The position numbers and the translations under genes are program-made. From assembly GCF_004766125.1 (NCBI RefSeq), contig NZ_SJSA01000001.1, positions 1,302,001 to 1,366,000 on the forward strand: a DNA stretch of 64,000 nucleotides, given 5' to 3'. How positions within the stretch are numbered: position 1 is the first letter of the stretch; every line of letters begins with the position of its first letter. Under the pieces are notes generated by a model. It ran no database searches. It worked only from the letters and a program-made list of their open reading frames with translations, and was not told the origin of the DNA. Below, one piece after another: positions 10,151 through 59,354 of this stretch. The stretch comes from Duncaniella freteri. GTDB lineage: Bacteria; Bacteroidota; Bacteroidia; Bacteroidales; Muribaculaceae.

Positions 10151-10304
10151 AGACCAAAGGACCAGAGAGCTGTATAGGACAGGAGAACAGGAGAACTTTT
10201 TTATAGGACCAAAATATGAACCTGAATATATTAAAACTATAGTCCTTTGGTCCTCTGGTCTAAAAGTTCTCCTGTTCTCCTGTCTTAATATAGTTCTCTG
10301 GTCC
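10151..10304. repeat. Inverted intergenic repeat, family copy 1
   Basis: Left arm at 10159-10199 and right arm at 10263-10304 are imperfect inverted copies about 41 bases long. Each carries GACAGGAGAACAGGAGAACT (or a one-base variant) next to a GGACCAGAGAG motif. The 63-base interior holds further GGACCAAA / TTTGGTCC inverted segments. The copy fills the gap between mdh and the ABC permease gene. The same motifs recur in six other gaps of this window. Confidence 0.85.
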
Positions 10305-10307
10305 CGA

Positions 10308-11507
10308 TTACACTCGGAACCCCTTCCGGATATTGCGCGAGATAGCAATGATATTCCCCGCCGTGATGGCAAGAATTATTGCAGTGCCTGTCAGGACCGT
10401 AGGCACGCACGATGCACCGCGGGCACCGAGAGCCTCTATCTGTTCCTGCCACATTGACGACGCAGCAAGCATCCCGGCTACGGCCAGCAGCAGAACCGAC
10501 AGATTGACAGTGGCAACTATAGTCTGGTAATACCTTGCCACCTGTCCCGGGGTATATCCCAGGAGCATAAGGTCGTGTATCTTGGAGCGGTTCTTCTGTA
10601 GGAGCAGATATATGCTGAGAAGAAGTATAAAGAACGCAAGTATGCTGATTATGGCACCGATGGCGACCACTACAGTAGTGACCATCGACAGGAAATAAGC
10701 GGCTTTGCCACCTGCGGTCTTATCGCCGGCAATTTCGTAATCATGGCTCTCCATATATTTTGTCGCCTCAGGGTCGCCTGCGCGTTTCAGTTTCACTATC
10801 AGGCGTGACGGCTCGGTGTTGCGGCCTTCACCGTAAATCCCGTTCGCCCAGGAGAGAAAGTTCTCAGGCACAGCTATAGTGTTGAGCCTTGACGAGAATC
10901 CGGCTATGCGGGCGTCCACCCATTGCTGACGTCCGTTGCCGCTGAGGCTCAGACGTAATGGGAGCATACCTATAAGTTCCTCCGATATCTGAGGCATCCC
11001 GCGTGAGGCGGCAAACCCGAAATTATAGAGCGTAAGATAATCTTTGGATATGATTACCGGCACCGGGTCATTCGAGCCGGGGCGGTAGTCCCATCCTCGG
11101 GGAGATATGTCGAAAAACTTGTCAGGGATAGACTCAAGGAATAGAGCCGTCGACAGGTTGGCACCAGCCATATTCACCTGCGCGCTTATATTGAAATCCG
11201 CAGCGGTGAATTCACCCACCTCTTCCGCCCAGGGCTGTGACGAGATCTCTGAGCGTTCATCGGCAGTGAAGGTGGTAGCCGCCTGCCCGCCACCCATAAG
11301 TCCGTCAAGCCCCTCCACGCGTTTGGATATTATCATATAGTCGGCAGACACGAACGAATCCTCCGCATCGCTTACCGAAGTGATGTCACGATAGAATTGC
11401 AAGGCAGTGAGGACAATCACCAGTCCCGCCAGATTGGCGATAGCGTACCCCGCTATCTGCCCCCCGCTTATATTGCGGCGCAACAGCCGCCTGATCGGAT
11501 TAGACAT
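10308..11507 (-). CDS. ABC transporter permease, FtsX/MacB-like
   Basis: A 399-residue membrane protein. It has one N-terminal transmembrane helix (IAGYAIANLAGLVIVLTALQFY), a long extracytoplasmic domain of about 230 residues, and three C-terminal helices (AYFLSMVTTVVVAIGAIISI onward). This is the FtsX-like topology of type VII ABC systems, which move lipoproteins or signal rather than pump small solutes. The segment LMLLGYTPGQVARYY is the usual coupling region. The matching ATPase lies upstream at 12105-12770, but a decayed GxxExxY gene and repeats separate the two. The substrate is unknown. Confidence 0.75.
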   Translation of the reverse strand: MSNPIRRLLRRNISGGQIAGYAIANLAGLVIVLTALQFYRDITSVSDAEDSFVSADYMIISKRVEGLDGLMGGGQAATTFTADERSEISSQPWAEEVGEFTAADFNISAQVNMAGANLSTALFLESIPDKFFDISPRGWDYRPGSNDPVPVIISKDYLTLYNFGFAASRGMPQISEELIGMLPLRLSLSGNGRQQWVDARIAGFSSRLNTIAVPENFLSWANGIYGEGRNTEPSRLIVKLKRAGDPEATKYMESHDYEIAGDKTAGGKAAYFLSMVTTVVVAIGAIISILAFFILLLSIYLLLQKNRSKIHDLMLLGYTPGQVARYYQTIVATVNLSVLLLAVAGMLAASSMWQEQIEALGARGASCVPTVLTGTAIILAITAGNIIAISRNIRKGFRV

Positions 11508-11536
11508 AGATTAGATATTATTTGTTTTAATATATT

Positions 11537-12068
11537 AAAGACAGGAGAACAGTAGGACTTATTTTATTCTTGAACTTGGTTTTTGGAACGATATGACCTG
11601 TCAAAAAGACGAGTTTTATGTATTATACGATAATCCTCAGCCCCATAATTTATTAGAAATCCATCATCAATTCTTGTAGCTGTAAGATAGTTTACTAATT
11701 GGATATGATGAGATTTATTTAATTAAGATATGGCTTTTAGCTCTATTATCACTTTACCTTCTACTATTATGTCTGCTCTGAAGTCGCCTACATGAATGAT
11801 ATCCTTTGTAATTAACCCGAATAGGTGACTCTTCTTCAATATTAAGCCCATGGGATCGTAATTCGATCGCCAGAGCTTTTTTATATATCGATTCAAGGTA
11901 ACCTGGTGCAAGTTCTTTTCTTACCTCAAAGGCGCAATCTTTGATAATAGATAGAAGATCGGTGGTATTCATATATAAATGTGTATTTATGGTTTAAAAT
12001 ATGTTTGAAAATTTATGGTTTTGTAGTTACAGAAATAGTTCTCCTGTTCTCCTGTCTGTTCTCCTGTA
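11537..12068. repeat. Inverted repeat pair bracketing the GxxExxY relic, family copy 2
   Basis: A forward copy AAAGACAGGAGAACAG lies at 11537-11552. The inverted copy AGTTCTCCTGTTCTCCTGTC lies at 12037-12056, followed by one more half unit to 12068. Together they enclose the 409-base GxxExxY pseudogene at 11564-11972 with only short AT-rich margins. Termini of this kind suggest that a small cassette was inserted between the two ABC genes. No flanking target duplication was found by eye. Confidence 0.65.
11564..11972 (-). pseudogene. Decayed GxxExxY protein gene
   Basis: The frame starting at 11972 (MNTTDLLSIIKDCAFEVRKE, then LAPGYLESIYKKALAIELR) matches the N-terminus of GxxExxY proteins, including the GYLESIY form of the name motif. 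Around residue 53 the homology passes to another frame, which continues FRADIIVEGKVIIELKAIS and stops at TAA. After that stop the same frame still encodes IQLVNYLTATRIDDGFLINY and a tail ending at 11564. The gene therefore carries one frameshift and one in-frame stop. The family is PD-(D/E)XK nuclease-like and its role is unknown. Confidence 0.85.
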
Positions 12069-12104
12069 TTTTATTTAGTAATAATTTATTGATAAAGAAT
12101 CCAT

Positions 12105-12770
12105 CTAAAGGTGCAGTAGTCTGAACTCGTTGAGTGTGAGCTTGTTCCCTACCGAAGTGGCAATTACGGCAGCCGATCGTCTTTCAGCCTCCTCGACTAT
12201 TAATGCAGCCACCGACTCATTGTTTCTCGCATCGAGATGGCTCACAGGCTCGTCCACAAGCAGGAAATCAAACGGTTGGCACAGAGCCCTGATTATAGCC
12301 ACCCTCTGTTGCTGGCCCACACTGAGTAGTCCTGCGTTCCATTCCGCCTTATGCCGCAATTCCAGGCGGTCAAGCATCTGCAATATCTCCGCCTCACTGC
12401 GGTAGGAGGTAAGACGGTTCTTCACCATGATATTATCCATCACTGACAGCTCAGGAAACAGCCGCATCTCCTGCGGCAGATAAGCCAACGCCTCACGGCG
12501 CAGCCGGCACCATTTCTCAATGGAATACCCCTTGACAGGCTCCCCATCCATAAGTATCTCCCCGTCGTAATCAGTGCGTGCCCCATATATAAAAGAGCAG
12601 AGCGACGACTTTCCGGTCCCGCTCTCCGCCTCGATTATATAGTTGCCGGGGCGCGTGAACACCAACTCATCACGCATCCACACCTCACTATCGCACACAG
12701 GCGACTCCTTCTCGCTCCCGCGGAACACCTGCGGAAGCACCCTCCGCAGAGTAATGTTTTGTATCATCAT
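12105..12770 (-). CDS. ABC transporter ATP-binding protein
   Basis: A 221-residue nucleotide-binding domain starting MMIQNITLRRVLPQVFRGSE; the second ATG at 12767 is equally possible. The Walker A is slightly unusual, AESGTGKSS, with Ala in the first Gly position. The Q-loop is LAYLPQEM, the signature is LSVGQQQR in place of LSGGQ, and the Walker B is FDFLLVDEP. The downstream permease at 10308-11507 on the same strand is the likely partner. The longer reading frame runs through repeat sequence and is not a credible start. Confidence 0.85.
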   Translation of the reverse strand: MMIQNITLRRVLPQVFRGSEKESPVCDSEVWMRDELVFTRPGNYIIEAESGTGKSSLCSFIYGARTDYDGEILMDGEPVKGYSIEKWCRLRREALAYLPQEMRLFPELSVMDNIMVKNRLTSYRSEAEILQMLDRLELRHKAEWNAGLLSVGQQQRVAIIRALCQPFDFLLVDEPVSHLDARNNESVAALIVEEAERRSAAVIATSVGNKLTLNEFRLLHL

Positions 12771-12798
12771 TATATCATTTAAAGCCCCGAATAATTTC

Positions 12799-12875
12799 AG
12801 ACCACAGGACCATAGAGCCATAATCCTATAGCCCTCTGGTCCTTTGGTCAAAAAAACTTATAGCCCTCTGGTCCT
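12799..12875. repeat. Intergenic repeat, GGACCAGAGGGC module, family copy 3
   Basis: GACCACAGGACCATAGAGCC is inverted against ATAGCCCTCTGGTCCTTTGG around a short loop (12799-12849). A third half copy, ATAGCCCTCTGGTCCT, at 12860-12875 overlaps the stop codon of the DUF4836 gene. This copy has only the GGACC module and lacks the GACAGGAGAAC arms. Confidence 0.7.
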
Positions 12876-14286
12876 AATCCAGCATTATAGAAAGCAGATA
12901 GGTCAGTATCGGACCATTGCTTCCCGGAAGCGCGAATTTCGCCTGGCCCTTTCCGCCCGACATTTCGATAGCCAACTCCATGGCAACACCCTCGGGGGCA
13001 CCGTTAATGTAATCCGACAAAGGATCTGCAATGATATTAAGCGACATTTCCTTGTTGACAAACATCGGTGCAAGCGAATTATTTCGTGTATTGTCAAATC
13101 CTATTGTGGATATTCCCAGATAGCCGTCCACATTACCTATGGTTATCTCCTTGCCATACTGGGGTACGGCAATCAGCCCCTCACCCACAGCCTTGGGGGT
13201 GATGCCTGCGGTAGCCATCATTGAACTCACAGTAGCCGTGAGCTGATTTATTTTCCTCTGAGGCATATGGACAAGAAGTATGAAATCCCAGTCCGATGGG
13301 TCGCCGCTGTCAATCACATTGGGTGTTACCGGGCGTGCAGCTATGAGCAGAGTCCCGTCGATGGACTCAAGGTAAGGAGTTATCACATTCATGAAAGCCT
13401 CCGCCTGGAATCCACCGAACAATCTGGCAATAGTCTCGAACGGTGTCCAGTCGAAGTCAGGGGTCAGTCCTGCTCCGAATGTCAGGTTGAACCCTTCCGG
13501 CACATAGGCAAGCACCGCAGGATTGATATTCCGCATCCCCTTTGACTTCTCGATCTTTCCGTCCGAAGTCATCCTCTCCCAGTTGAGCACTATCGATTTT
13601 CCGTCCGTAGTAGTGTTGATGGCAGCGACATTCCACATTTTTTCCTGTATCGACTGATTGTCCGGTTTCTTGTCCGACTGCTCTAACCAGTTGATCATTG
13701 CGGTGTTTGCCAGATTATCGCGATTCAATGCCTGGGCAATACCGTCAAGCTTGCTTATGGGCATCTCCTTGGCGGCATTCAGCACATCTTTCACGCACTG
13801 TGTCGCCGTCTTGTTGTGTCTCGACAGTATCCATATCTGAGAGTCGTTTGCCACCAATGGATAGTTCCCGGCATATCCGGTGTGGAATCCGTCATTATCG
13901 GCATTCCAGGTTATGGCATCCTCCATCACAAGTTTGAACCGCTCGAAGTCCGAGATGGCAAATGTCATGAAGGCGGTATTGTTTTTGTCGAGCACGAGTG
14001 CTATGGTACTGAAGTCGGCAACCCCCTTGGCATCCATCTCAGCCAGATTATTTATCACATCCGGTATGGTAGGGGCTATGTTCTTCTCGATTTCCGGAGA
14101 TGCTTTTATGCCTTCCTCGGTGAATTTTATGCCCGAAGCCTCGCATAGCGACCGCAGATTCAATGTTGTTACTGTTGTCACATTGGCAGGGATCGTGTCA
14201 AGCAGCTCTGCCTTTTTTGAGCATGACGACATCACTCCGAGCATCACGGCAAGGAGTGCGAAGAGAGAAAAGTTTTGTATCTTCAT
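12874..14286 (-). CDS. DUF4836 family lipoprotein
   Basis: A 470-residue protein starting MKIQNFSLFALLAVMLG, with lipobox VMSSC, so it is predicted to be lipid-anchored. The mature part begins by describing LLDTIPANVTTVTTLNL and has the alternating domains of DUF4836 proteins, common and uncharacterised in Bacteroidales. An in-frame start 11 codons upstream would disrupt the signal peptide and is rejected. It lies upstream of the ABC ATPase and permease on the same strand and could be part of the same envelope system, though repeat DNA separates them. No catalytic motif is visible. Confidence 0.75.
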   Translation of the reverse strand: MKIQNFSLFALLAVMLGVMSSCSKKAELLDTIPANVTTVTTLNLRSLCEASGIKFTEEGIKASPEIEKNIAPTIPDVINNLAEMDAKGVADFSTIALVLDKNNTAFMTFAISDFERFKLVMEDAITWNADNDGFHTGYAGNYPLVANDSQIWILSRHNKTATQCVKDVLNAAKEMPISKLDGIAQALNRDNLANTAMINWLEQSDKKPDNQSIQEKMWNVAAINTTTDGKSIVLNWERMTSDGKIEKSKGMRNINPAVLAYVPEGFNLTFGAGLTPDFDWTPFETIARLFGGFQAEAFMNVITPYLESIDGTLLIAARPVTPNVIDSGDPSDWDFILLVHMPQRKINQLTATVSSMMATAGITPKAVGEGLIAVPQYGKEITIGNVDGYLGISTIGFDNTRNNSLAPMFVNKEMSLNIIADPLSDYINGAPEGVAMELAIEMSGGKGQAKFALPGSNGPILTYLLSIMLD

Positions 14287-14298
14287 GATTGTAAGTTG

Positions 14299-14347
14299 GA
14301 GGCTGTGCCGTGATGTCATGGATATATGAGATCAAGGGCACAGCCTC
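14299..14347 (-). terminator. Hairpin between ettA and the DUF4836 gene
   Basis: Perfect 11-base arms GAGGCTGTGCC (14299-14309) and GGCACAGCCTC (14337-14347) enclose 27 bases, beginning 20 bases after the ettA stop. There is no T run, so a processing site or weak terminator is possible. Confidence 0.45.
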
Positions 14348-14366
14348 ATCCGTTAGAGTGATATAT

Positions 14367-16052
14367 TTATTCCATAAGTTTCCTGTAGCGGCGTCTCACC
14401 GGCTCCTTGCCTCCGTTGTGGGCTTTCTTGTACTCTTCGTAATCCGAGTAGGAACCCTCGTAGAACACCACATTGCCGTCACCCTCAAACGAGAGTATAT
14501 GTGTGCATATCCTGTCGAGGAACCATCGGTCGTGGCTCACTACCACTGCACATCCGGCAAAGTCCTCAAGGCCTTCCTCCAGTGCGCGCAGAGTGTTCAC
14601 GTCGATATCGTTGGTGGGCTCGTCGAGCAGGAGCACATTACCCTCCTCCTTAAGAGCCATGGCAAGGTGCAGACGGTTGCGCTCGCCGCCCGAGAGCACT
14701 CCTATCTTCTTCTCCTGGTCGGCTCCTGTGAAATTGAACCTCGACAGATAGGCGCGGGCATTGATGTCCCTGCCGCCCATGCGGAAGCTCTCCACCCCCT
14801 GGGATATCACCTCATACACGCTGCGTTCGGGCAGAAGGTCATGGTGGGTCTGGTCGACATAAGCGATCTTCACGGTCTCGCCCACATCGAATGTGCCTGC
14901 ATCCGGTGTCTCCTGACCCATGATGAGGCGGAACAGAGTGGTCTTGCCTGCTCCGTTGGGACCTATCACACCCACAATGCCGCCCTGAGGGAGCGAGAAT
15001 GACAGATCCTTGAACAGCTGCTTTTTGCCGAAAGCTTTCGAGAACCCCTGCACATCGATCACCTTTGCTCCAAGGCGCGGACCGTTGGGGATGAATATCT
15101 CAAGGCGTTCCTCACGTTCCTTCTGGTCTTCGTTGAGGAGCCTGTCATAGCTGTTGAGTCGGGCCTTGCCCTTTGCCTGGCGGGCCTTCGGAGCCATGCG
15201 CACCCATTCAAGCTCTCTTTCGAGTGTCTTGCGGCGTTTGGATGCCTGCTTCTCCTCCTGTGCCATACGCTTGGTCTTCTGGTCGAGCCACGATGAATAG
15301 TTACCCTTCCATGGTATGCCCTCGCCGCGGTCAAGCTCAAGAATCCATCCCGCCACATGGTCAAGGAAGTAACGGTCGTGAGTGATGGCTATCACGGTGC
15401 CGGGATACTGCTGGAGATGCTGCTCAAGCCAGTCGATGCTCTCCGCGTCAAGGTGGTTGGTAGGCTCGTCGAGAAGAAGGATGTCGGGCTGCTGGAGCAG
15501 GAGGCGGCACAAAGCCACACGGCGGCGTTCGCCACCCGAGAGGGTTGATATCTTCTGGTCGTCAGGCGGGCACTGTAGGGCATCCATCGCACGTTCGAGC
15601 TTCGAGTCGATGTTCCATGCGTCAGCGGCATCGAGCTTGTCCTGAAGCTCGGCCTGGCGGGCAAGCAGTGCATCCATCTTGTCGGGGTCCTCAAGCACAT
15701 CCGGGTCTCCGAACGACTCGTTCACCTTGTCAAACTCCGCAATCAGGTCCATGATGGGCTGCACACCCTCGCGCACCACCTCTATCACAGTCTTGTCGGG
15801 GTCCAGCTGCGGGTCCTGTTCAAGATACCCCACGGAGTAGCCCGGAGAGAACACTACTTCTCCCTGATAGCTCTTGTCGATACCGGCAATGATCTTGAGC
15901 AGAGAGGATTTACCCGAGCCGTTAAGACCGATTATACCTATTTTTGCCCCATAAAAGAATGACAGATAGATATTTTTTAGCACTTGTTTTTGCGGGGGAT
16001 ATATCTTCGACACCCCCACCATAGAAAAAATTACTTTCTTATCGTCAGCCAT
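14367..16052 (-). CDS. ettA: Energy-dependent translational throttle protein EttA (ABC-F)
   Basis: A 561-residue soluble ABC-F ATPase with two nucleotide-binding domains and no membrane segment. Domain one has GLNGSGKSS near residue 43 and LSGGERRRVALCRLL; domain two has GPNGAGKTT and LSGGERNRLHLA. The linker with the P-site tRNA-interaction motif and the Arg/Lys-rich arm (KRMAQEEKQASKRRKTLERE) lie between them. Full length and the YPPQKQVLKNIYLSFF start match EttA rather than antibiotic-resistance ABC-F proteins. It binds the ribosomal E site and tunes elongation to the ATP/ADP ratio. A -7 box lies upstream. Confidence 0.95.
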   Translation of the reverse strand: MADDKKVIFSMVGVSKIYPPQKQVLKNIYLSFFYGAKIGIIGLNGSGKSSLLKIIAGIDKSYQGEVVFSPGYSVGYLEQDPQLDPDKTVIEVVREGVQPIMDLIAEFDKVNESFGDPDVLEDPDKMDALLARQAELQDKLDAADAWNIDSKLERAMDALQCPPDDQKISTLSGGERRRVALCRLLLQQPDILLLDEPTNHLDAESIDWLEQHLQQYPGTVIAITHDRYFLDHVAGWILELDRGEGIPWKGNYSSWLDQKTKRMAQEEKQASKRRKTLERELEWVRMAPKARQAKGKARLNSYDRLLNEDQKEREERLEIFIPNGPRLGAKVIDVQGFSKAFGKKQLFKDLSFSLPQGGIVGVIGPNGAGKTTLFRLIMGQETPDAGTFDVGETVKIAYVDQTHHDLLPERSVYEVISQGVESFRMGGRDINARAYLSRFNFTGADQEKKIGVLSGGERNRLHLAMALKEEGNVLLLDEPTNDIDVNTLRALEEGLEDFAGCAVVVSHDRWFLDRICTHILSFEGDGNVVFYEGSYSDYEEYKKAHNGGKEPVRRRYRKLME

Positions 16053-16138
16053 ATTCCGAACTGATGTTTATTTTAAGGTTGATTTATTATTTAAGTCTTT
16101 ATCTTGATTCCTGATAAAAATATTTTTTCGCTCTGCTG

Positions 16139-16146
16139 CAAAGATA
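16139..16146 (-). promoter_or_regulatory. -7 box of ettA
   Basis: The minus strand reads TATCTTTG, a perfect TAnnTTTG match 87 bases upstream of the ettA start, within an AT-rich leader. The -33 element is not clear. Confidence 0.5.
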
Positions 16147-16168
16147 GACAAAATTTATCGAATCACTT

Positions 16169-17290: not shown

Positions 17291-17293
17291 AGC

Positions 17294-18838: not shown

Positions 18839-18895
18839 ATCTAATTGGAATTAATGGTTGTTGTCTGAGGCAAATAAATAGTTCTTGATGGTGAG

Positions 18896-19123
18896 TCACA
18901 GCGACCTGTCGATCAGTTCTTCCCTCACAGCTCCGGCTCTCTCTTCATCCGTGGCGTAGTCCCGCTTGAGAATATCGGGAAAGAAAAACAGTTTCATCAC
19001 AAGAAATATGAATATGAGCTTGATGATGATTATGGCCCAGAGTTTTCTGCCCACTGTCATGGACCGGAAACCTTCTATATAGAATCGAGCGATTCTCATG
19101 AATATGTTCTGCCGTATTTCCAT
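18896..19123 (-). CDS. DUF4492 small membrane protein, cyd-linked
   Basis: A 75-residue protein with one transmembrane helix (AIIIIKLIFIFLVMKLFFF, about residues 29-47), preceded by a basic amphipathic segment (FYIEGFRSMTVGRKLW) and followed by an acidic tail. DUF4492 proteins are regularly encoded directly before cydAB in Bacteroidetes, as here with a 57-base gap. By position and topology it could be a small accessory or assembly subunit of the bd oxidase, like CydX/CydH elsewhere, but it is larger and unrelated in sequence. That role is an inference. Confidence 0.85.
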   Translation of the reverse strand: MEIRQNIFMRIARFYIEGFRSMTVGRKLWAIIIIKLIFIFLVMKLFFFPDILKRDYATDEERAGAVREELIDRSL

Positions 19124-19169
19124 ACCGTTCGGGTCTTGAAGCTCTTCTGATTATAACCTCTCGCTGTGC

Positions 19170-20189: not shown

Positions 20190-20225
20190 CTTAAGGGCTT
20201 CATGAAGTTAAAAGTCGATATACTC

Positions 20226-25236: not shown

Positions 25237-25601
25237 GATCCTCTGTTTTTTAGAAAGTGCAAATTTACGCAAAAATCCGCGTTCTTTTTGTACGGATCTC
25301 TTCGATTGCTGTGTATAATGCACCCCTTCGCAGTGTTCCGCACATTGTTTCAATAATGTCGTTATAGGCTCCGAAAAGTAGCAAAAATCTACAATTAAAG
25401 CCTAAAAAGTATCGATTGTGTGAAATGTTGTTAATGCTCATGTCATTTCTTCAAGAAATATTTTGTCACATCAGCCAAACGTCTTAACTTTGCACCGTGT
25501 TTTTCATGGTATTAGATTTAAGGTTAACTAAGATTGGTTGTCGAGATGACAATCAATTTCTTTTTTTGTACCTTTGCTGACGTTCATCCCATCTGTCTAT
25601 C
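25237..25601. other. Divergent promoter region between the MATE and LtaS-like genes
   Basis: This 365-base AT-rich gap contains a minus-strand -7 box TAAATTTG (25267-25260) for the MATE gene and two plus-strand boxes for the LtaS-like gene. No gene or repeat was seen. Confidence 0.6.
25462..25492 (+). promoter_or_regulatory. Promoter of the LtaS-like operon
   Basis: TTTG (25462-25465) and TAACTTTG (25485-25492) are 19 bases apart. A second -7 box, TACCTTTG at 25569-25576, lies nearer the ATG at 25602 but has no -33 partner, so transcription may start at two sites. Confidence 0.65.
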
Positions 25602-32331: not shown

Positions 32332-33560
32332 CAGGGCTGGCGCATGAGATTTAACTCAAATTCAGTCAAAAATTCACCTGATTATGTGAAATAAACTTTC
32401 AGATATTGCATATATTGCTGAAAATGGATATATTAGAGGTATGCAAATAGAAATTTTCAGCAAAGTAAAAGACCCGCGCGACTTGGGCAAGGTTAAACAT
32501 GAGCTCGAGGATGTGCTCCGAATGGCACTCATCGGCGTGTTGTGTGATTGTGAGGACTGTGACGACATATCGGATATGGTTACAGACCGAGAGGAAGAAT
32601 TCAAGGCTGCCGGATTGCTGAAGCTTAGCAACGGTGTCCCGTGTGGTGACACGATACTTCGTGTTGTAGAGTCTGTCAATCCCGCTCAGCTCCGGGCAAG
32701 TCTTGATTGCTGCCGAGGCCACATAATCGAATCCCTGTGCGGCAATCAGGTCATCATTGACGGTAAGAAACTGCGGGGTGAAAATCCCAGGAGTCCCGGA
32801 TGCCACGGACTGTATATCCTCAATGCGTGGGTATCTGAAACAGAAATCTGCGTTGCCGAAAAGCCGGTGGATGGCAAGACCAACGAACTTACGGTTCTGC
32901 CGTCCGTATTGTCCTCTTTATGGCTTACAGGGGCATTGGTTTCAGTCGACGCAATGGGGACCCACCGTAATATCGCAGAACAGATCATGCTCCAGGGCGG
33001 CGACTATCTGATGGCGCTTAAAGACAATCAGCCGATACTCAAGGACTTGACGGAAAGTATCTTTAGTAGCACTACTCCAATATCGGTATACACAACCGAG
33101 GAAAAGGGGCACGGAAGAGTTGAGAAGAGAACCTGTTCAATTATGGATACGACACTTTTGGAACAGGAGGGAATGTACGAGAAGTGGCCCGGTCTTAAAC
33201 GTATCATAAAGATGGAGCGTGAGCGTACTGAGAACGGCGCCCGCTCGCGTGAAACAATCTACTATCTCAGCAGCGTGGAGAAAGATGAGGCTTCTTACTA
33301 TGCGATGCGTATTCGTGCGCACTGGGGTATCGAGAACAAACTGCACTGGCATCTCGACGTGACGTTTCGGGAAGATATGTGCCGCGTACGCGCCAAGAAT
33401 GGCGCTGTCAATTTTTCAGCGATGCGCAAGTATGCATTGGAAATGCTTAAAAAGCAGAACGATAAACTCAGCCTTAAACGAAGACGCAAAAAATGTATGT
33501 GGAGCACTGAATATCTGTACAAAGTCTTTAAGGATAGTTAAATCTCATGCGTCAGCCCTG
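32332..33560 (+). mobile_element. ISAs1-family insertion sequence, intact, with 9-bp target duplication
   Basis: The 1229-bp element has 22-bp terminal inverted repeats: left CAGGGCTGGCGCATGAGATT and onward at 32332-32353, right at 33539-33560, with one mismatch. It is flanked by the direct repeat AATAAAAAC at 32323-32331 and 33561-33569. The target duplication falls in the T tract of the neighbouring terminator. The perfect duplication and full-length transposase indicate a recent, probably active insertion. Confidence 0.95.
32441..33541 (+). CDS. ISAs1-family transposase
   Basis: A 366-residue DDE transposase. The N-terminus has the family's DPRDLGKVKHELEDVL segment. The DDE residues are expected in VIIDGKKLRG, in LVSVDAMGTHRNIAEQI, and in the C-terminal IRAHWGIENKLHWHLDVTF, which contains the Glu. 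The C-terminal KYALEMLKKQ helix matches the H-repeat/ISAs1 group. The stop codon overlaps the right inverted repeat, normal for compact insertion sequences. The frame is intact. Confidence 0.95.
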   Translation: MQIEIFSKVKDPRDLGKVKHELEDVLRMALIGVLCDCEDCDDISDMVTDREEEFKAAGLLKLSNGVPCGDTILRVVESVNPAQLRASLDCCRGHIIESLCGNQVIIDGKKLRGENPRSPGCHGLYILNAWVSETEICVAEKPVDGKTNELTVLPSVLSSLWLTGALVSVDAMGTHRNIAEQIMLQGGDYLMALKDNQPILKDLTESIFSSTTPISVYTTEEKGHGRVEKRTCSIMDTTLLEQEGMYEKWPGLKRIIKMERERTENGARSRETIYYLSSVEKDEASYYAMRIRAHWGIENKLHWHLDVTFREDMCRVRAKNGAVNFSAMRKYALEMLKKQNDKLSLKRRRKKCMWSTEYLYKVFKDS

Positions 33561-33599
33561 AATAAAAACAGTCGCATCTTCTCAAAAAGATGCGACTGT
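33561..33599 (-). terminator. Terminator of the inositol-phosphate synthase gene, interrupted in its T tract
   Basis: Perfect 13-base arms ACAGTCGCATCTT and AAGATGCGACTGT (33568-33580 and 33587-33599) have a 6-base loop, followed on the minus strand by GTTTTTATT. The ISAs1 element is inserted directly after this tract, whose sequence forms the 9-bp target duplication. Confidence 0.85.
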
Positions 33600-33635
33600 A
33601 ACTATTGTTTTAACCGTTATTGCAGTGGCAGGGGA

Positions 33636-48310: not shown

Positions 48311-48370
48311 TCCCCCTCTCTATCCCCTGCGGCACCGCGTCGCAGAGGCATCTGAAAAAAATACTCTATT

Positions 48371-48595: not shown

Positions 48596-48625
48596 TTGTG
48601 GGTAACCAAAAAAATTGTACCTTTG
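48596..48625 (+). promoter_or_regulatory. Promoter of the second SusC/SusD operon
   Basis: TTG (48596-48598) and TACCTTTG (48618-48625) are 19 bases apart, about 100 bases upstream of the second susC. The terminator before it and this promoter make the second SusC/SusD pair an independent transcription unit. Confidence 0.7.
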
Positions 48626-48728
48626 TATAGTGCAAAAAAGTATACAATAAAGAGTGTGATCTGTCATCCGGCGATTTTCCGGAGGCTGATTATAGTATCC
48701 ATCCACAATAGTAACCTACATTTTAAGT

Positions 48729-51992: not shown

Positions 51993-52018
51993 TCTGATAT
52001 ATCCAATCGACTTTGACA

Positions 52019-53443: not shown

Positions 53444-53500
53444 TCCGGGAGGAGATGTCCACCGTATAGCAATATTTGATGTTGCTTTATTGATGAACAG

Positions 53501-53550
53501 GAGATGAGGATGTGTCAAGATATGTTGTGCATCCTCATCTCTGCATTTTT
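53501..53550 (+). terminator. Intrinsic terminator after the second SusD gene
   Basis: Perfect 12-base arms GAGATGAGGATG (53501-53512) and CATCCTCATCTC (53530-53541) enclose 17 bases and are followed by a T-rich tail (TGCATTTTT). Confidence 0.75.
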
Positions 53551-53610
53551 CCTTCTCTTTTCCGGCAATGACCAGTTATTCAAATCCATTTTTCACATAA
53601 TTCAAGTAAT

Positions 53611-54957
53611 ATGAAATCGATCCTCCCTCTTATTCTGCTCCTCTTGTCAGGCATATCCTCTACAGCCGGCAACCTGTCAGTGACATTCGATCTTTCCGGC
53701 AATCCCGGAAGTGAAGACATCAACATCACCCTGCGACCCGCAGAGGACTACAACCCCGCCTCATCGGTCACGCTCGCCCGCTCAGGCACTCAGCGCACCG
53801 GTGAGATACCCGCATCCCCCTCAGGGCTCTACTATCTCTATTGCTACACCCCCCAATATCAGACATCCATTCCTGTGAGCCTCGATGCCTCAAGCTTCAC
53901 GGCTCCTGTCAAGGTCAATGTCGATGCCGGCGACTTTGTTGTGTCCACCTCCCTCGCCGGGCCTGTCAATTCGGCTCTTGCTGATGCCAACAGCCGTTTC
54001 GTCAGCCGTTCACGCCTCATTGGCAATAAATCCGTCGAAATGACCGGCGACGAGCTCCGCGACAATCTCCGGGGCTTCTCCGCCGATGCCGATGCCGTCA
54101 TTTCCGCAGCCAAGCTCCCTGCACCCGCTCAGGAGTTCATACGCCTGTGGGCATACACCCTCGCATCCGACTCCTATAGCATGGCTCTCTACATGCGCTC
54201 ACGCGCCGACAAGCAGGTCACCTTCTCCGTATCCGACATCCTTCCCCCTCCGGCTGCAATCCTTGACACCCCTATGGCGGCAGGATTCCCCTCAGCCATG
54301 GGAGCCGTAGTGTCGACACTCCCAGGAAAAAGCCTCGAAGAACGCCTTGAGTCACTCCATTCAGGCTACCGCACCCAGGCTATAAAGGACAACGTCACCC
54401 CAATGCTCATAGAATCATTCCTGAGCTCCTTCGACTATAAGAACGACTTCGAGTCAGGCGAGGCACGCCTGGCTGCTCTCACCGACAGATACTCTCTCCC
54501 CGCCAAATATCTCGCCGGCTTCCGTGCGCGTCGCGCCACCGTCCCCGGACTCCCCTTCCCATCGGGAATAACACTCCTTGACCGGGACGGCAACACAGTC
54601 GACTTCTCATCCTTCCGTGGCAAATACGTTTACGTCGACCTTTGGGCATCATGGTGCGGTCCATGCTGCAAGGAAGTCCCCTTCCTTCAGAAACTCGAAA
54701 AAGAGCTCAGCGACTCCAATGTCATCTTCGTATCCATCTCCTGTGACTCATCCACGGCTCCATGGCTCAAAAAGATGCAGCAGCTCTCGATGCACGGCAA
54801 CCAGCTCATCGACACAACCGGCGACCTCAACCGCAAGCTCAATATCCGCGGCATCCCCCACTTCCTCATCTACGATCCCCAGGGCAACCTCCACACCTAC
54901 AACGCCCCGCGTCCCTCCTCATCCCAGATCCTCCCCCTCCTCCGCTCCCTCAAATAA
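53611..54957 (+). CDS. TlpA-like thioredoxin-fold protein with N-terminal DUF
   Basis: A 448-residue exported protein with signal peptide ILPLILLLLSGISSTAG. An N-terminal beta-rich domain and a helical middle region (about residues 110-300) precede a C-terminal thioredoxin fold. The redox motif WCGPC lies in YVDLWASWCGPCCKEVPFLQ near residues 347-353, with an extra Cys just after it, and the cis-Pro is in IRGIPHFLIYD. It would reduce or isomerise disulfides in the periplasm. TlpA-like proteins often accompany SusCD/DUF4843/PKD operons, so it may serve the same uptake system despite its separate transcript. Confidence 0.85.
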   Translation: MKSILPLILLLLSGISSTAGNLSVTFDLSGNPGSEDINITLRPAEDYNPASSVTLARSGTQRTGEIPASPSGLYYLYCYTPQYQTSIPVSLDASSFTAPVKVNVDAGDFVVSTSLAGPVNSALADANSRFVSRSRLIGNKSVEMTGDELRDNLRGFSADADAVISAAKLPAPAQEFIRLWAYTLASDSYSMALYMRSRADKQVTFSVSDILPPPAAILDTPMAAGFPSAMGAVVSTLPGKSLEERLESLHSGYRTQAIKDNVTPMLIESFLSSFDYKNDFESGEARLAALTDRYSLPAKYLAGFRARRATVPGLPFPSGITLLDRDGNTVDFSSFRGKYVYVDLWASWCGPCCKEVPFLQKLEKELSDSNVIFVSISCDSSTAPWLKKMQQLSMHGNQLIDTTGDLNRKLNIRGIPHFLIYDPQGNLHTYNAPRPSSSQILPLLRSLK

Positions 54958-54973
54958 CCCACAGCCCGATTCA

Positions 54974-55163
54974 TAGACCATAGGACCATAATTTAGACCA
55001 TAGGACCAGAGGCCAAAAGGTCCCAAAGTCAAATAATCAAAGAAGTAGATATAATCAAAGACAAAGACAGGAGAACAGGAGAACTATCATGGAATCGTAG
55101 GGTGGGGGCGTGCCCCCACCGCCAGCGACGATACCGAAAAAATCCCTCCTGTTCTCCTGTCTT
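54974..55163. repeat. Composite intergenic repeat with G-rich core, family copy 4
   Basis: Left to right: AGACCATAGGACCA-type units (54974-55025), GACAGGAGAACAGGAGAACT (55066-55085), the palindromic core GGTGGGGGCGTGCCCCCACC (55101-55120), and the inverted CTCCTGTTCTCCTGTC (55146-55161). The inverted arms enclose the core. The copy fills the gap between the thioredoxin-like and LEA-like genes. Confidence 0.85.
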
Positions 55164-55175
55164 TATTTACTGGTC

Positions 55176-55646
55176 TTACTTAAGCTTCTCGGCCAATTTC
55201 TCAGCCACATCAGCAAGAGACCCCAGCGCATTAGCCGCAGCACCTTTAGCCTTATCGATAAACGGCTGAGCCTTCTCCTTAGCCTCCTTAGCTGAAGCCG
55301 ACAGCGACTCCTTAGCATCAGCCACAGTCGATGCCACAGTGCTCTGCACATCGGCAAGCTTCTCTGCAGCAGCCTCTTTAGCCTCCGCCACCTTCTCCGC
55401 AGCCGCCTCCTTGGCTTCAGCCACCTTCTCAGCCGCAGCCTCCTTGGCATGAACCATTGAATCCTTAGCGTCGGCAAGCTTCTCTGCAGCCGCCTCCTTA
55501 GCCTCAGCAACTTTCTCCGCGGCAGCCTCCTTATTAGCCTTGATTTCAGCCTTGGCAGCGACCTCAGCCGCCTTCGCGCTCACCTGTGCCGCCTTAGCCG
55601 ACACCTCTCCCGCACATTTTGCTATCTTTTCATTCTTCAAATCCAT
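55176..55646 (-). CDS. LEA-like protein with 11-residue Ala/Lys/Glu repeats
   Basis: A 156-residue hydrophilic protein with no hydrophobic core. Five near-perfect 11-mers of the type AAAEKVAEAKE occupy about residues 41-101, interrupted once by SMVHAKE, and shorter VSAKAAQ-type heptads precede them. Such 11-mers form amphipathic helices in group 3 LEA and apolipoprotein-like proteins, which protect membranes or proteins in stress; an envelope or DNA-binding role is also possible. The 33-bp DNA repeats could allow copy-number change. Only one Cys is present and there is no signal peptide, so it is probably cytoplasmic. Confidence 0.75.
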   Translation of the reverse strand: MDLKNEKIAKCAGEVSAKAAQVSAKAAEVAAKAEIKANKEAAAEKVAEAKEAAAEKLADAKDSMVHAKEAAAEKVAEAKEAAAEKVAEAKEAAAEKLADVQSTVASTVADAKESLSASAKEAKEKAQPFIDKAKGAAANALGSLADVAEKLAEKLK

Positions 55647-55797
55647 AATAGTTGAGTATTAATTTGTTAGTATTGCATAATGGACACACCTCAAGTGCAT
55701 CTCGCACAACCGATGTCCGTTTGAAAAAACAACGTCAGCATCGCCCGACAGGTTGAAAGAAACTTCGCCAAATTTTATTAAAAAAGCTTATCCGCAC

Positions 55798-55828
55798 TTG
55801 CAATCAGCCCGCATTAATACTATCTTTG
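55798..55828 (+). promoter_or_regulatory. Promoter of the reverse rubrerythrin gene
   Basis: TTG (55798-55800) and TATCTTTG (55821-55828) are 20 bases apart, giving a leader of about 60 bases. No operator palindrome was recognised. Confidence 0.7.
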
Positions 55829-55897
55829 CATATGAAAAAGTTGCAACAGATATAGTCAACTTGATAACTCAATAACTCAATATAACAAGAAAACACT

Positions 55898-56449
55898 ATG
55901 AAAAAGAAATTCATTTGCACTGTTTGTGGCTACATACATGAAGGAGATGCAGCACCCGAAAAATGCCTCCTCTGCGGCGTTCCCGCATCCAAATTTGAAG
56001 AGCTCAAAGAAAACGAAGCACTCAGCTTCGTGACCGAGCACGTGATCGGCGTAGCCAAGGACACCGACGACGAAATGAAGAAGGACCTCAATGCCCACTT
56101 CGCAGGCGAATGCACCGAAGTAGGCATGTACCTCGCAATGTCACGTCAGGCCGACCGTGAAGGCTATCCCGAAATCGCCGAAGCATTCCGCCGCTACGCA
56201 CTTGAGGAAGCCGACCACGCATCACGTTTCGCCGAACTCCTCGGCGACGTTGTATGGGACACCAAGACCAACCTTGAAAAGCGCATGAACGCCGAGTCTG
56301 GAGCATGTGCCGACAAGATGCGCATTGCAGCCCGCGCAAAACAGCTCAACCTCGACGCCATCCACGACACCGTACACGAAATGGCAAAGGACGAAGCACG
56401 TCACGGACGCGGCTTTGAAGGACTCTTCAACCGTTACTTCCGCAAATAA
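55898..56449 (+). CDS. Reverse rubrerythrin (NADH peroxidase-type)
   Basis: A 183-residue protein whose N-terminal rubredoxin-like domain binds iron through Cys7, Cys10, Cys23 and Cys26 ([10 protein letters not shown] and CLLCG). A ferritin-like diiron domain follows, with Glu/His ligands in [22 protein letters not shown] and [10 protein letters not shown]. The order, rubredoxin first, is that of reverse rubrerythrins, which reduce hydrogen peroxide in anaerobes. It stands alone with a good promoter and a perfect palindrome downstream. Together with cydAB it forms the visible oxygen defence of the window. Confidence 0.93.
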
Positions 56450-56526
56450 ACCATACTGCGTCCATATGCTCCTATAGCCCCTCAGGCACTATAGGACCAT
56501 CTCAAAAGACAGAACAACACAACACA

Positions 56527-56564
56527 TTCGCCCTATAACCATCACCTGATGGTTATAGGGCGAA
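56527..56564. terminator. Perfect 36-base palindrome, probable terminator
   Basis: Arms of 18 bases (56527-56544 and 56547-56564) match perfectly around two bases. It lies 77 bases after the rubrerythrin stop and is followed by ATATTT. A bidirectional terminator or part of the adjoining repeat are both possible. Confidence 0.6.
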
Positions 56565-56577
56565 ATATTTAATTCAG

Positions 56578-56766
56578 ACCAAAGTCCCGGAGGGACAAAG
56601 AAAGACAGGAGGAATTATAATCTAAAGACAGGAAAACAGTACAGCAGTACAGCAGGCTCAACCATCATCGGTAGGGCGGAGGCGTGCCCCCGCCGCCTGC
56701 GACAAATACCATAAAGTCCTCCAGTTCTCCTGTCTCGACACACAAACACTCTGTTCCTTTGGTCTA
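56578..56766. repeat. Composite intergenic repeat with G-rich core, family copy 5
   Basis: It contains ACCAAAGTCCCGGAGGGAC, two degenerate GACAGGA units (56604 and 56627), the core GTAGGGCGGAGGCGTGCCCC and onward at 56671-56697, and the inverted unit CCTCCAGTTCTCCTGTCTC at 56718-56736, ending TTCCTTTGGTCT. It is more diverged than copy 4. It occupies the 324-base gap between the rubrerythrin and HIT genes. Confidence 0.75.
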
Positions 56767-56773
56767 AAAATTC

Positions 56774-57199
56774 TCAGAGCACCTCTCTGATAGCATTAAT
56801 CATCTCCTCATACTCACACTCCGAGAGAAACACCTCACCCGGATTCATTCTGAACGTCCCGCCATAATCCGGGCCATCCACATACTTCGGCGCAAGATGG
56901 AAATGCAAATGCGACAACTTATCGCTGTAGGCACCATAATTAATCTTCTCAGGATTGAACACCCTCTGCATAGCGCGGGTCACCCGGGCGACATCAGCCA
57001 TAAAAGCATTACGCTGATCATCGTCAAGCTCATTAAGATCATTTACATGACCGTTATAAGCCACCAGGCAACGGCCGCGGTAAGTCTGCTCCTTAAAAAG
57101 GAAAGCGCGTGACACACTCAGATCCGCAATATGGATCATCAGATTATGAAGAGTCTCATTGTCAGTACAATAAAGACACTCCTTAGGATCGCTGTACAT
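56774..57199 (-). CDS. HIT family nucleotide-binding hydrolase
   Basis: A 141-residue protein with the histidine triad HLHFH at residues 97-101 and a family-like front end (CLYCTDNETLHNLMIHIADL). HIT proteins hydrolyse or transfer nucleoside phosphates from dinucleotides or aminoacyl adenylates. This one is close in style to Fhit/HinT-like bacterial proteins, with a Cys pair (CLYC) at residues 8-11 that could bind metal. It is preceded by its own promoter. The physiological substrate is unknown. Confidence 0.88.
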   Translation of the reverse strand: MYSDPKECLYCTDNETLHNLMIHIADLSVSRAFLFKEQTYRGRCLVAYNGHVNDLNELDDDQRNAFMADVARVTRAMQRVFNPEKINYGAYSDKLSHLHFHLAPKYVDGPDYGGTFRMNPGEVFLSECEYEEMINAIREVL

Positions 57200-57251
57200 A
57201 AAAAACGATTTAAGGATTAAAAAATAAAGATAAAAAATAAACTTCCGACCA

Positions 57252-57281
57252 CAAAATTAGCAAAAATCCCCCACCTCACAA
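57252..57281 (-). promoter_or_regulatory. Promoter of the HIT gene
   Basis: On the minus strand TTG (57281-57279) and TAATTTTG (57259-57252) are 19 bases apart, about 53 bases before the ATG. Confidence 0.6.
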
Positions 57282-57363
57282 TCCCAAATCCCACTTCACC
57301 CATTCCAACCCCACATACACAATCCCACTCCCAACCTCAACCCCTCCCCCTCATCCTTCCGAT

Positions 57364-57515
57364 AACCGTAGGGCGGGGGCGTGCCCCCGCCGCTACCGTC
57401 AAACCTTATTTATAGCCACTCCTCATGACTATAAAAAACTTCACGTCTCTGGTCCTCTGGTCCAAAAAGTTCTCCAGTTCTCCAGTCTTTTCTTCACAAA
57501 CCCTCTATTCCTCCT
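57364..57515. repeat. Composite intergenic repeat with G-rich core, family copy 6
   Basis: The core GTAGGGCGGGGGCGTGCCCC and onward (57368-57392) is followed by CTCTGGTCCTCTGGTCC and the half unit AGTTCTCCAGTTCTCCAGTC (57468-57487), then a further TCCTCCTGTCTC. The forward GACAGGAG arm is missing on the left, so this copy is one-sided. The rest of the 490-base gap before the FadL-like gene is C-rich and shows no gene. Confidence 0.75.
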
Positions 57516-57591
57516 GTCTCGAATTCTCAGTGAAATTGACCAATTTTCAAGACATATTGACGGAAAATTGCGTTAAAAAAACTTTAATAGC

Positions 57592-57622
57592 TTGTTTGCC
57601 ACACATTATACCCTTACCTTTG
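57592..57622 (+). promoter_or_regulatory. Promoter of the FadL-like gene
   Basis: TTG (57592-57594) and TACCTTTG (57615-57622) are 20 bases apart, with the ATG 68 bases downstream. Confidence 0.7.
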
Positions 57623-57689
57623 CCACGTTTTTTAACAAAAGGTAAGCCTCTGAGACAGAGCGCGCACCACCATCATTATTCAACCTTAT

Positions 57690-59114
57690 ATGAAAAAAAT
57701 CCTCTTATCCGCCGTCGCCACCATCCTCATGGCAGGCACAGCAATGGCAGAAGGCTATCAGATCAACTCCCTCTCAACCAAGCAGATCGGAATGGGACAC
57801 ACAGGAGTAGCCCTAAAGCTCGGAGCCGAGAACATGTACTTCAACCCCGCCGGAATGGCATATATGGACAAGACTCTCGATCTCACAGGCTCATTCACAG
57901 GCATAATGCCCACAGCCACAGCCACAGTCGACGGCAAAGAATATGAGACCGACAACGGCGTCTCCACCCCCATCAGCGTCAACGCAGCCTTCAGCATATA
58001 CCCCAACCTCAAAGGAGGCATAGCATTCTACACCCCCTACGGTTCATCAATCAACTGGACCGACAACTGGCCCGGCTCAGTGCTCAATCAGAACGTATCG
58101 CTCAAGGCATTCACCATACAGCCCACACTCGCATGGGCAATCAACGATAAATTCTCCATCGGACTCGGAGCAATGGTGACATGGGCAACCGTCGACCTCA
58201 ACAAAGGACTCGTCTCAGCCTCCACCGCCGACAACGTGATAAACGCCATGAAGACACTCGGGCAGCTCCCCGCATCAGTAGGAAGCTTCGGAAGCACCAC
58301 CCCCGCATCCGTCAATCTCAACGGCAAGACCCGGATAGCCGTAGGCTTCAACATCGGAGCAATGTACAACGTCAACGACCGCCTCACCTTCGGAGCATCC
58401 TTCCGCTCAAAGATGGATATGAAAGTCAAGGCAGGCGAAGCACACGTATCCTATGCCAACGAACTCGCCCAGACACTCACAGGCGAGACCATCGACCTCA
58501 TCAACAACGCCAACTTCAAGGCACAGATGCCATGCCCCTGGGTGCTCTCGCTCGGCGCATCCTACAAGCCCGTCGACCGTCTCACACTCGCCTTCGACGC
58601 ACGTCTCACAGGCTGGCATGCCTACAAGAGCCTCGATGTCGAATTTCTTGACGAACAGCTCGTCCAGAAAGGGCTCAACCAGTACATCCCCAAGCACTAT
58701 AAGAACTCATGGTGCTTCTCACTCGGAGCGCAGTACGCCCTCACCGAACGCTTCGACCTCCGTGCCGGACTCATGGTCGACACATCACCGGTCGACAAAA
58801 ACTACTACAACCCCGAGACCCCCGGCATGACCAAGATCGAACCCACACTCGGACTCTCATTCCGTCCCGTCCCGCAGCTCTCCATCGACTTAGGTTTCAT
58901 GTACGTGGCAGGCACAGGCATCAAGGGCGCATCATGCGAATCACCCGACCTCATGGGAAAAGCATTCCTCGGAAAACTCATGGCTGCCGGCATGACACCT
59001 GAGCAGGTGGCAGGGATAGCAACAAAATTCAACATCCCCACCACCAACAAATTCACAGCCGACTACAAGCTCCACGCCTTCATCCCATCCATCGGCGTAA
59101 GCTACAGCTTCTAA
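57690..59114 (+). CDS. FadL/OmpP1/TodX-type outer-membrane transport protein
   Basis: A 474-residue barrel protein with signal peptide ILLSAVATILMAGTAMA. The N-terminal hatch region YQINSLSTKQIGMGHTGVAL, followed by NMYFNPAGMAYM, is the FadL-family signature, and the barrel ends LHAFIPSIGVSYSF. FadL proteins admit hydrophobic compounds such as long-chain fatty acids by lateral diffusion. In a gut Bacteroidales the likely cargo is host or dietary lipid, which is an inference. It is monocistronic, with repeats on both sides. Confidence 0.92.
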   Translation: MKKILLSAVATILMAGTAMAEGYQINSLSTKQIGMGHTGVALKLGAENMYFNPAGMAYMDKTLDLTGSFTGIMPTATATVDGKEYETDNGVSTPISVNAAFSIYPNLKGGIAFYTPYGSSINWTDNWPGSVLNQNVSLKAFTIQPTLAWAINDKFSIGLGAMVTWATVDLNKGLVSASTADNVINAMKTLGQLPASVGSFGSTTPASVNLNGKTRIAVGFNIGAMYNVNDRLTFGASFRSKMDMKVKAGEAHVSYANELAQTLTGETIDLINNANFKAQMPCPWVLSLGASYKPVDRLTLAFDARLTGWHAYKSLDVEFLDEQLVQKGLNQYIPKHYKNSWCFSLGAQYALTERFDLRAGLMVDTSPVDKNYYNPETPGMTKIEPTLGLSFRPVPQLSIDLGFMYVAGTGIKGASCESPDLMGKAFLGKLMAAGMTPEQVAGIATKFNIPTTNKFTADYKLHAFIPSIGVSYSF

Positions 59115-59166
59115 GACTTTTAGAACATATAACCATAGATATATATAGTTCATACAGATTAAGGCA

Positions 59167-59354
59167 ATAGGACTTCGGACCACAGCTCCGTAGAGCTATA
59201 TTAAAGACAGGAGAACAGGAGAACTTTCTTACGATACTTGTCGCAATCGGCGGGGGCACGCCCCCGCCCTACGGCATCGAAGAAAGTTCTCCTGTTCTCC
59301 AGTCTTGTTTTTGGAAGTCACTATAGCCCTTTGGACATCTGGTCTAAAGGACCA
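59167..59354. repeat. Composite intergenic repeat with G-rich core, family copy 7
   Basis: GACAGGAGAACAGGAGAACT (59206-59225) is inverted against AGTTCTCCTGTTCTCCAGTC (59285-59304), with arms extended to about 27 bases. The core palindrome, here in reverse orientation (GGCGGGGGCACGCCCCCGCC and CTAC, 59249-59272), lies between them. GGACCACAGCTCC and CTTTGGACATCTGGTC units flank the whole. This is the most symmetrical copy. Confidence 0.88.

Follow-up and report, generated by a model that had tools for sequence, protein, structure and literature searches.

The stretch analysed here, called the window, comprises 64,000 nucleotides of the Duncaniella freteri genome (3.55 Mb in five contigs; the window is C1:1302001-1366000), and our subject is a family of intergenic repeats that occupies seven of its gaps and in one of them encloses a broken gene of the GxxExxY family. 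The original prediction held that these seven gaps are built from the same parts, and arms, GACC units and the G-rich palindrome were indeed found at the places given for them (Table 1). By contrast, inverted arms are present in five gaps and not in seven: pairs lie at 10151, 11537 (around the broken gene), 54974, 56578 (where the left arm is degenerate) and 59167, the gap 57364-57515 has one minus-strand arm, and no GACAGG arm was found in element 3 (12799-12875). Because one gap is thus single-armed and one armless, the statement that the arms are always outermost or next to outermost fails for the full set of seven. That copies never lie inside genes is true for the window arms, and the one call to the contrary, a GACC hairpin at 12800-12849, reflects an over-extended TTG start of an ABC gene. 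The gap of element 2 (11537-12068) is flanked by an ABC ATPase gene and an FtsX-like permease gene whose FtsX match falls just under the Pfam cut-off.

Table 1. Repeat elements and associated features, in window coordinates.
Feature	Position	Strand	Description
Element 1, gene-less nested palindrome	10148..10305		3' of FtsX-like permease gene; GACC box 10152-10168(+), arm 10178-10197(+), inner GACC box 10244-10260(-), arm 10265-10284(-), outer word 10293-10305(-); fold z -10.2
Element 2	11540..12056		arms 11540-11559(+) and 12037-12056(-) around broken GxxExxY gene
Broken GxxExxY gene (TIGR04256 / PF13366 PDDEXK_3)	11621..11954	-	split into two fragments that lie in different frames, with one internal TAA stop
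Element 3, hairpin of GACC words only	12799..12875		12800-12815(+), 12833-12849(-), further CCTCTGGTCC unit; fold z -4.7
Element 4, convergent gap	54974..55163		GACC box 54994-55012(+), arm 55066-55085(+), GTAG palindrome 55097-55120(+), arm 55142-55161(-)
Separate terminator-like hairpin	56527..56564		17 pairs, loop 4; 3' of rubrerythrin gene; beside and outside element 5
Element 5	56577..56766		GACC word 56577-56592(+), degenerate arm 56627-56646(+), GTAG palindrome 56671-56694(+), arm 56715-56734(-), GACC word 56748-56765(-)
Element 6, partial, divergent gap	57364..57515		GTAG palindrome 57368-57391(+), GACC box 57446-57463(-), single arm 57468-57487(-)
Element 7, convergent gap	59167..59354		arm 59206-59225(+), GTAG palindrome 59249-59272(-), arm 59285-59304(-), outer GACC word 59326-59345(-); fold z -9.7

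Searching the window with the 20-mer arm (≤3 mismatches) gave 10 matches, all in the gaps that had been named beforehand, versus 0.01 expected from 100 shuffles, of which the largest count was 1. The whole-genome search that had been proposed as a check returned 44 matches to the 18-mer arm core (≤2 mismatches, 22 per strand) compared to 1 for the reversed-word control, and these 44 matches resolve into 23 places separated by >600 bp (contig C1 has 22, C2 has one). In seven 20-kb genome stretches picked without regard to the repeat, no arm (≤3 mismatches) was found; the family is thus clustered, and most of it lies on C1, from 0.6 to 1.43 Mb and around 1.89 Mb. For the GACC box (GACCAAAGGACCAGAGG) there are 26 genome matches (≤2 mismatches; control 1), and for the G-rich palindrome nine copies (≤3 mismatches; control 0). 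The latter is a thing apart from the arms and of the GTAG repetitive extragenic palindrome (REP) type: four of its copies lie inside window elements, one lies ~115 bp from an element and four have no arm or box nearby, and it occurs in or near 5 of the 23 arm places.

Arms and boxes share a grammar of short words. Read inward, the arm consists of two 8-nt words, GACAGGAG-AACAGGAG, with AACT and in most cases a further T behind them, and it can also be written as a tandem of a single 8-nt word, ACAGGAGA ACAGGAGA AC; the GACC boxes are further 8-nt words (GACCAAAG GACCAGAG GGCTATAG). Nested palindromes, in which an outer GACC box, a GACAGG arm, an inner GACC box and a loop are followed by the mirror order, are common among the elements. 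In 12 hand-picked elements of this genome, with orthologous loci left in, AG pairs at 8-nt spacing numbered 99 when read inward, a 5.65-fold excess, versus a maximum of 29 in 200 letter shuffles, and AG outnumbered CT by 310 to 93. Moreover, left and right arms of one element are more alike than a left arm and the right arm of another element (0.753 vs 0.676 over 38 nt; 0 of 10000 permutations), as determined for the 15 elements with an assignable inverted pair after single, direct and very degenerate copies had been dropped. Three whole elements gave RNA fold z values of -10.2, -9.7 and -11.6, compared to -4.7 for 12796-12878 and -2.1 for 54990-55139, a stretch without the right arm of element 4. 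A partner of element 1 with a similar interior lies at C1:1045304.

The fragments of the broken gene matched the GxxExxY profile with E values of 2.2e-15 and 1.0e-12 (9.9e-17 and 2.9e-13 in a second search), and this copy is dead. The genome has one intact GxxExxY gene (C1:1272622-1272957), which is enclosed by an inverted repeat composed of different words (GATRCAAAAGTTTCAGAAGCACAAAAGAAACA); in another member of the Muribaculaceae (locus L162), an intact GxxExxY gene has arms of the GACAGGAGAACAGGAG type, as in the window, at distances of 24 and 110 bp. On the basis that the nuclease copy within these arms is broken and that the intact copy has different words, the arm family in this genome is probably orphaned. 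Residues D66, E76, K78, Q90 and Y94 do not vary among the L162 protein and 52 further GxxExxY proteins (53 in total), and D...ExK followed by QxxxY is what we take to be the pattern of RecB/Cas4-type nucleases. A search for relatives with a solved structure yielded none (best E 0.42). The idea that GxxExxY is a known defence-system protein was dropped, as the PADLOC match to Cas4b, obtained for one of two GxxExxY proteins, was not significant (E 0.031).

GxxExxY genes are present in 149 of 296 genomes of the phylum (E ≤ 1e-10) and exceed the cut-off in 4 of 27 genomes of the genus (our own included, and counting a G012 copy with an internal stop), with a match below the cut-off in one more. 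Inverted word arms surround many of these genes. Within the genus, they beat 200 of 200 shuffles at all four loci tested, one per genome. Across the phylum, the upstream/downstream inverted repeat was reached by none of 200 dinucleotide shuffles at 45 of 67 loci, corresponding to 31 of 49 independent sites, which were counted because many loci represent one site in related species. In the same shuffle test, genes for PF05635 proteins scored at 17 of 30 loci (8 of 20 independent sites), compared to 0 of 18 loci (0 of 7 sites) for OmpP1 and 0 of 35 for same-size genes of our own genome. When up to 10 of 200 shuffles were allowed, the counts of independent sites rose to 41/49 for GxxExxY, 12/20 for PF05635, 1/7 for OmpP1 and 4/35 for the same-size genes. 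Of 70 GxxExxY loci, 67 entered the test (one at a contig end and two with tandem genes were dropped); for PF05635 all 30 were used, and for OmpP1 18 of 22, the remaining four having short flanks. A mismatched-pair control, in which 0 of 30 GxxExxY loci exceeded the 99% level, suffers from contamination by orthologous loci and shared words, and we therefore relied instead on shuffles, same-size genes and de-duplicated sites. With orthologous loci included, the AG spacing profile has its maximum at 8-10 nt for the surroundings of GxxExxY and two maxima, at 7 and 14 nt, for those of PF05635; for OmpP1 the profile is flat.

Several further observations concern these genes and their surroundings. 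Two GxxExxY genes stand in tandem at L307 (G224) and L296 (G118). The locus of our own intact copy (L232) and that of G012 (L238) both lie beside a homologous region of ~810 bp (68.9% identity; recQ-like by eye), and their arm words differ. At L235 of G007, a GxxExxY element with CGCAGAG words sits at the 3' end of a relative (by eye) of a permease gene; here that permease gene (10308-11507) carries the gene-less element 1 at its 3' end. Lastly, a long palindrome of other words (CTTCTTGT) occupies the gap beside the OmpP1 orthologue in G012 (L082).

Eight plasmid GxxExxY loci from five phyla were also considered. Those of Gemmatirosa, Bernardetia and B. finegoldii beat all shuffles, and at the others the score was reached by 3 (Fusobacteria), 13 (Prevotella), 17 (Sphingomonas, where the gene sits between fabD and fabG), 21 (Treponema) and 112 (Persicobacter) of 200 shuffles. 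On the Gemmatirosa (Gemmatimonadota) plasmid, whose record has three GxxExxY places of which one was read, the gene lies between two hairpins, and both here and at L142 (Neorhodopirellula) each arm forms a complete hairpin by itself. In this second phylum, too, gene-less hairpins of the same words occur on the same replicon: three 50-kb stretches of the plasmid without a GxxExxY match contained four of them (reversed-word control 0). The exact 18-mer of the window arms was recovered from at least 120 stretches of GTDB genomes, belonging to other Bacteroidales and several other phyla and including some plain tandem arrays. Among the 80 loci listed, to which L162 belongs, a GxxExxY match lies 432 bp from the word at L142 and a PF05635-like match 53 bp from it at L156 (titled Nanoarchaeota). 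At L106 and L136 (Candidatus Viridilinea) and L151 (Alicyclobacillus), the identical octamer ACAGGAGA forms head-to-tail arrays on one strand in the stretch read, and three Prevotellaceae metagenome-assembled genomes (L155, L182, L183) have long arrays of GACAGGAGnACAnGAGnAC units with T-rich spacers, at L155 as a direct run followed by an inverted run.

Comparison with relatives revealed gaps without the element at orthologous places. An arm search of 26 other genomes of the genus yielded one match with 2 mismatches, at the level of the reversed control; 25 of the 26 are armless and four orthologous window gaps lack the element, so the outcome that was to speak against mobility, namely the motif at the same sites in all relatives with no empty ones, did not materialise. 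G006 maintains the order of the 55176 gene, the rubrerythrin, HIT, OmpP1 and DUF4834 genes with armless gaps of 125, 242 and 117 bp, compared to 324, 490 and 241 bp in our genome with elements 5, 6 and 7. The G002 gap that corresponds to element 5 measures 166 bp and contains other hairpins (one starting GACAGGAG), with no arm at ≤4 mismatches; in G011 the gene pair flanking element 4 is retained, and the 251 bp between the two genes are armless. These gaps tell us that the arms are missing from these sites in congeners, not how our own arms arose. In eight genomes of another genus, a GxxExxY element of ~450 bp was followed at one site, located after the stop codon of an AstE/AspA-family gene and before the scpB start: four genomes have it (one of them with an altered right arm), G064 retains a decayed form with outer arm words and ~78 bp of the gene, and three are empty, with 26-28 bp between the flanks. 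In our genome, a unit of 102-103 bp with AAGACAGGAGAACAGGAGAAC at its start and the inverse arm at its end is dispersed over three places (C1:1886795, 1891127 and 1901649), with 95-98 of 102-103 positions identical; its 60-bp flanks are identical at 35-43 positions in gapped alignment, a low bar among word repeats.

With a probability of roughly one half, we interpret the repeats as derivatives, in the manner of miniature inverted-repeat transposable elements (MITEs), of a nuclease-coding word-arm element: the gaps would hold gene-less copies of a small element with inverted arms of 7-11-nt words, most with AG when read inward, and in the coding form the loop enclosed by the arms would encode a GxxExxY protein, a member of the PD-(D/E)XK nuclease family. 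The non-autonomous, MITE-like nature and the varying interiors that had been proposed from the sequence agree with the broken nuclease gene as one interior and with the arm-bounded unit at three sites. In mechanistic terms, the arms could fold back as DNA or RNA hairpins, and the element's protein, or a relative in trans, might recognise the word arms and cut there. A copy would then settle at 3' gene ends or between operon genes, where the hairpin does the least harm, and changes shared by both arms might be kept by selection for pairing or by palindrome correction. More tentatively, such elements may form a mobile class over several phyla, with inverted arms of 7-11-nt, mostly AG-bearing words and an exchangeable loop gene (the GxxExxY PD-(D/E)XK nuclease or the PF05635 four-helix bundle), that spreads gene-less hairpin copies and is a main source of bacterial intergenic word repeats, the nuclease acting on its own arm hairpins to move them. 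To our knowledge, intergenic repeats of 7-11-nt words occur in many bacteria and have no accepted cause. If correct, the tie of word repeats to a small nuclease gene and to the protein family of intervening sequences (IVS), together with occupied, decayed and empty sites within one genus, would turn these repeats into a testable class of elements and provide a first suggested role for GxxExxY, a little-studied nuclease family mentioned in passing in PMC8934634. A literature search confined to CC-licensed PMC papers found no description of this element class or of the words, which may be in print elsewhere.

On the other hand, a number of observations weigh against derivation from a mobile nuclease-coding element. 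The intact GxxExxY gene of this genome carries other arm words, and gene-less relatives of those words were not found in 280 kb of the genome, where the scattered matches are weak and the three that were read (L225, L227, L228) are unlike elements. Because the empty sites were compared between species, an old gain or loss would fit them as well. The G064 copy, retaining part of the gene, represents decay rather than a new gene-less copy. Several GxxExxY sites are common to species of one genus and these elements are therefore not very mobile, no target-site duplication (TSD) was evident by eye at the one empty/occupied GxxExxY site, for which the relatives are too distant, and transposition, excision or cutting was not seen. 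The 70 phylum loci are a non-random set of 30 top-scoring and 40 hand-picked ones. Among independent sites, 18 of 49 for GxxExxY and 12 of 20 for PF05635 fail to beat every shuffle, with only 3 of the 8 plasmid loci doing so. Arm words without an AG ending exist (CAGATT in L253, CACGAAA in L142), and among the 80 listed loci with the exact 18-mer, the stretch examined contained a GxxExxY match at 2, a PF05635 match at 1 and neither at the other 77.

Two other accounts of the arms deserve consideration, although we judge both unlikely. In one, the elements would be parasites at the RNA level, resembling the IVS of 23S rRNA: their stem would be cut by RNase III or tolerated in mRNA, an open reading frame (ORF) for PF05635 or GxxExxY would lie in the loop, and copying would proceed through RNA and reverse transcription instead of a DNA nuclease. 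In line with this, PF05635, which is the IVS protein family, often lies between word arms of the same kind outside rRNA (the loci and sites counted above), with rRNA absent from 20 of 20 loci searched with Rfam (of the 30); the three whole elements fold strongly as RNA; GxxExxY genes sit between co-directional genes (fabD/fabG; the AstE/AspA-family gene/scpB); and, in the portion of PMC4990558 consulted, the Coxiella IVS offers the parallel of a terminal inverted-repeat stem of 28 bp with an S23 ORF in the loop and excision by RNase III. The protein encoded here, however, belongs to a nuclease family with invariant D, E and K and not to PF05635, which has 0 matches in the genome (E ≤ 1e-10). 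The other account, to which we accord a similarly small chance, dispenses with mobile machinery altogether: palindromes in neutral 3' gaps would grow through slippage of words, template switching and gene conversion between copies, and GxxExxY would be a passenger. It would explain direct arm arrays such as those with a period of ~90 bp at C1:1388858 and of 52 bp at C1:893815, as well as the octamer arrays of Candidatus Viridilinea and Alicyclobacillus, and the available part of PMC4679880 describes heptamer arrays that are missing from relatives at the same neighbourhood. It is at odds with the finding that two protein families are bracketed by arms on both sides and that an arm-bounded unit is dispersed in the genome.

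Position relative to genes would be accounted for if the repeats were transcription terminators or hairpins protecting the 3' ends of neighbouring genes. By hand count, 23 of 26 elements of this genome lie ≤60 bp from the 3' end of a gene; convergent gaps contain 16 of the 26 and a divergent gap one (26 arm/GACC clusters on C1, defined with a simple ORF caller, the halves of element 2 merged and two C2 places omitted); gaps ≥60 bp in the same stretches, which were chosen for their elements, comprise 36 co-directional, 19 convergent and 15 divergent ones. Nonetheless, the rubrerythrin gap keeps its own terminator-like hairpin beside element 5, at least one further convergent window gap (33542-33635) has a short hairpin and no element, the same gene pairs have armless gaps in G006, and terminators leave arms on both sides of a gene unexplained, all of which makes this account quite improbable. 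Least credible, to the point of near dismissal, are REP elements or bacterial interspersed mosaic elements (BIMEs) moved by a REP-associated tyrosine transposase (RAYT) of the Y1 type. Placement in convergent and co-directional gaps is REP-like, and the G-rich palindrome begins with GTAG and is palindromic, like the GTAG REP superfamily as outlined in an extract of PMC3733652. Yet the arms have no GTAG, the palindrome accompanies only a minority of the arm places, and Y1_Tnp (PF01797) gave 0 matches in the genome at E ≤ 0.001 in a search that scored in 5 of 14 control genomes, on which ground REP propagation by a RAYT was rejected. The REP-like affiliation offered in the original prediction is therefore confined to the G-rich palindrome, which on its own fits the GTAG REP superfamily.

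Elsewhere in the window, an Rfam search recovered a single match, the small RNA FopS (RF04319, 79.2 bits; a Bacteroidetes paralogous family) at 25497-25566 (+), with no rRNA in the window and no match in the seven repeat gaps, such that identity with a known repeat class, the second outcome that was to speak against novelty, was not borne out by this database. A complete-looking insertion sequence at 32332-33560 has 25-bp inverted repeats (96%) and an ORF for a 366-aa DDE_Tnp_1 transposase; its terminal inverted repeats (TIRs) are unrelated to the repeat arms. The malate dehydrogenase encoded in the window shares 97% identity with that of an uncultured Duncaniella sp., and the named matches listed for it come mostly from Duncaniella or Muribaculaceae, in agreement with the family mentioned in the original prediction.

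Among known systems, 23S rRNA IVS resemble the elements in that terminal inverted repeats form a stem with a small ORF in the loop, that presence is sporadic and that PF05635 genes outside rRNA often show word-type arms (Avd/PF05635 is treated in PMC10053308, of which an excerpt was available). Unlike them, the elements described here lie outside rRNA, encode a PD-(D/E)XK family protein in place of PF05635, have many gene-less copies in one genome and possess arms of tandem words. With the GTAG REPs, BIMEs and REPINs that go with RAYTs they share an intergenic, palindromic and dispersed nature, and some copies include a GTAG palindrome; the difference is that the arms are composed of 8-nt words without the tag and that no RAYT-type gene was found in the genome. 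GTAG at one end of a 20-40 bp palindrome is seen in the separate G-rich palindrome and not in the arms. MITEs are likewise short, non-coding and dispersed, with terminal inverted repeats, and the family here has arm-bounded copies and one broken coding relative with the same arms, but its arms are degenerate word arrays and not one fixed TIR, no TSD was evident at the one GxxExxY site compared and there is no known transposase. Heptamer repeats (short tandemly repeated repetitive sequences, STRR, and TAACTGA arrays) similarly place words of 7-8 nt in gaps and are missing from the same gaps of relatives, as far as the consulted part of PMC4679880 goes, whereas the words here are inverted, paired, 8-nt and imperfect, and tied to a nuclease gene. 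As judged from sequence, one of the seven window gaps directly fits the description of the GxxExxY word-arm element proposed here, and the others can be joined to it through shared arms or words.

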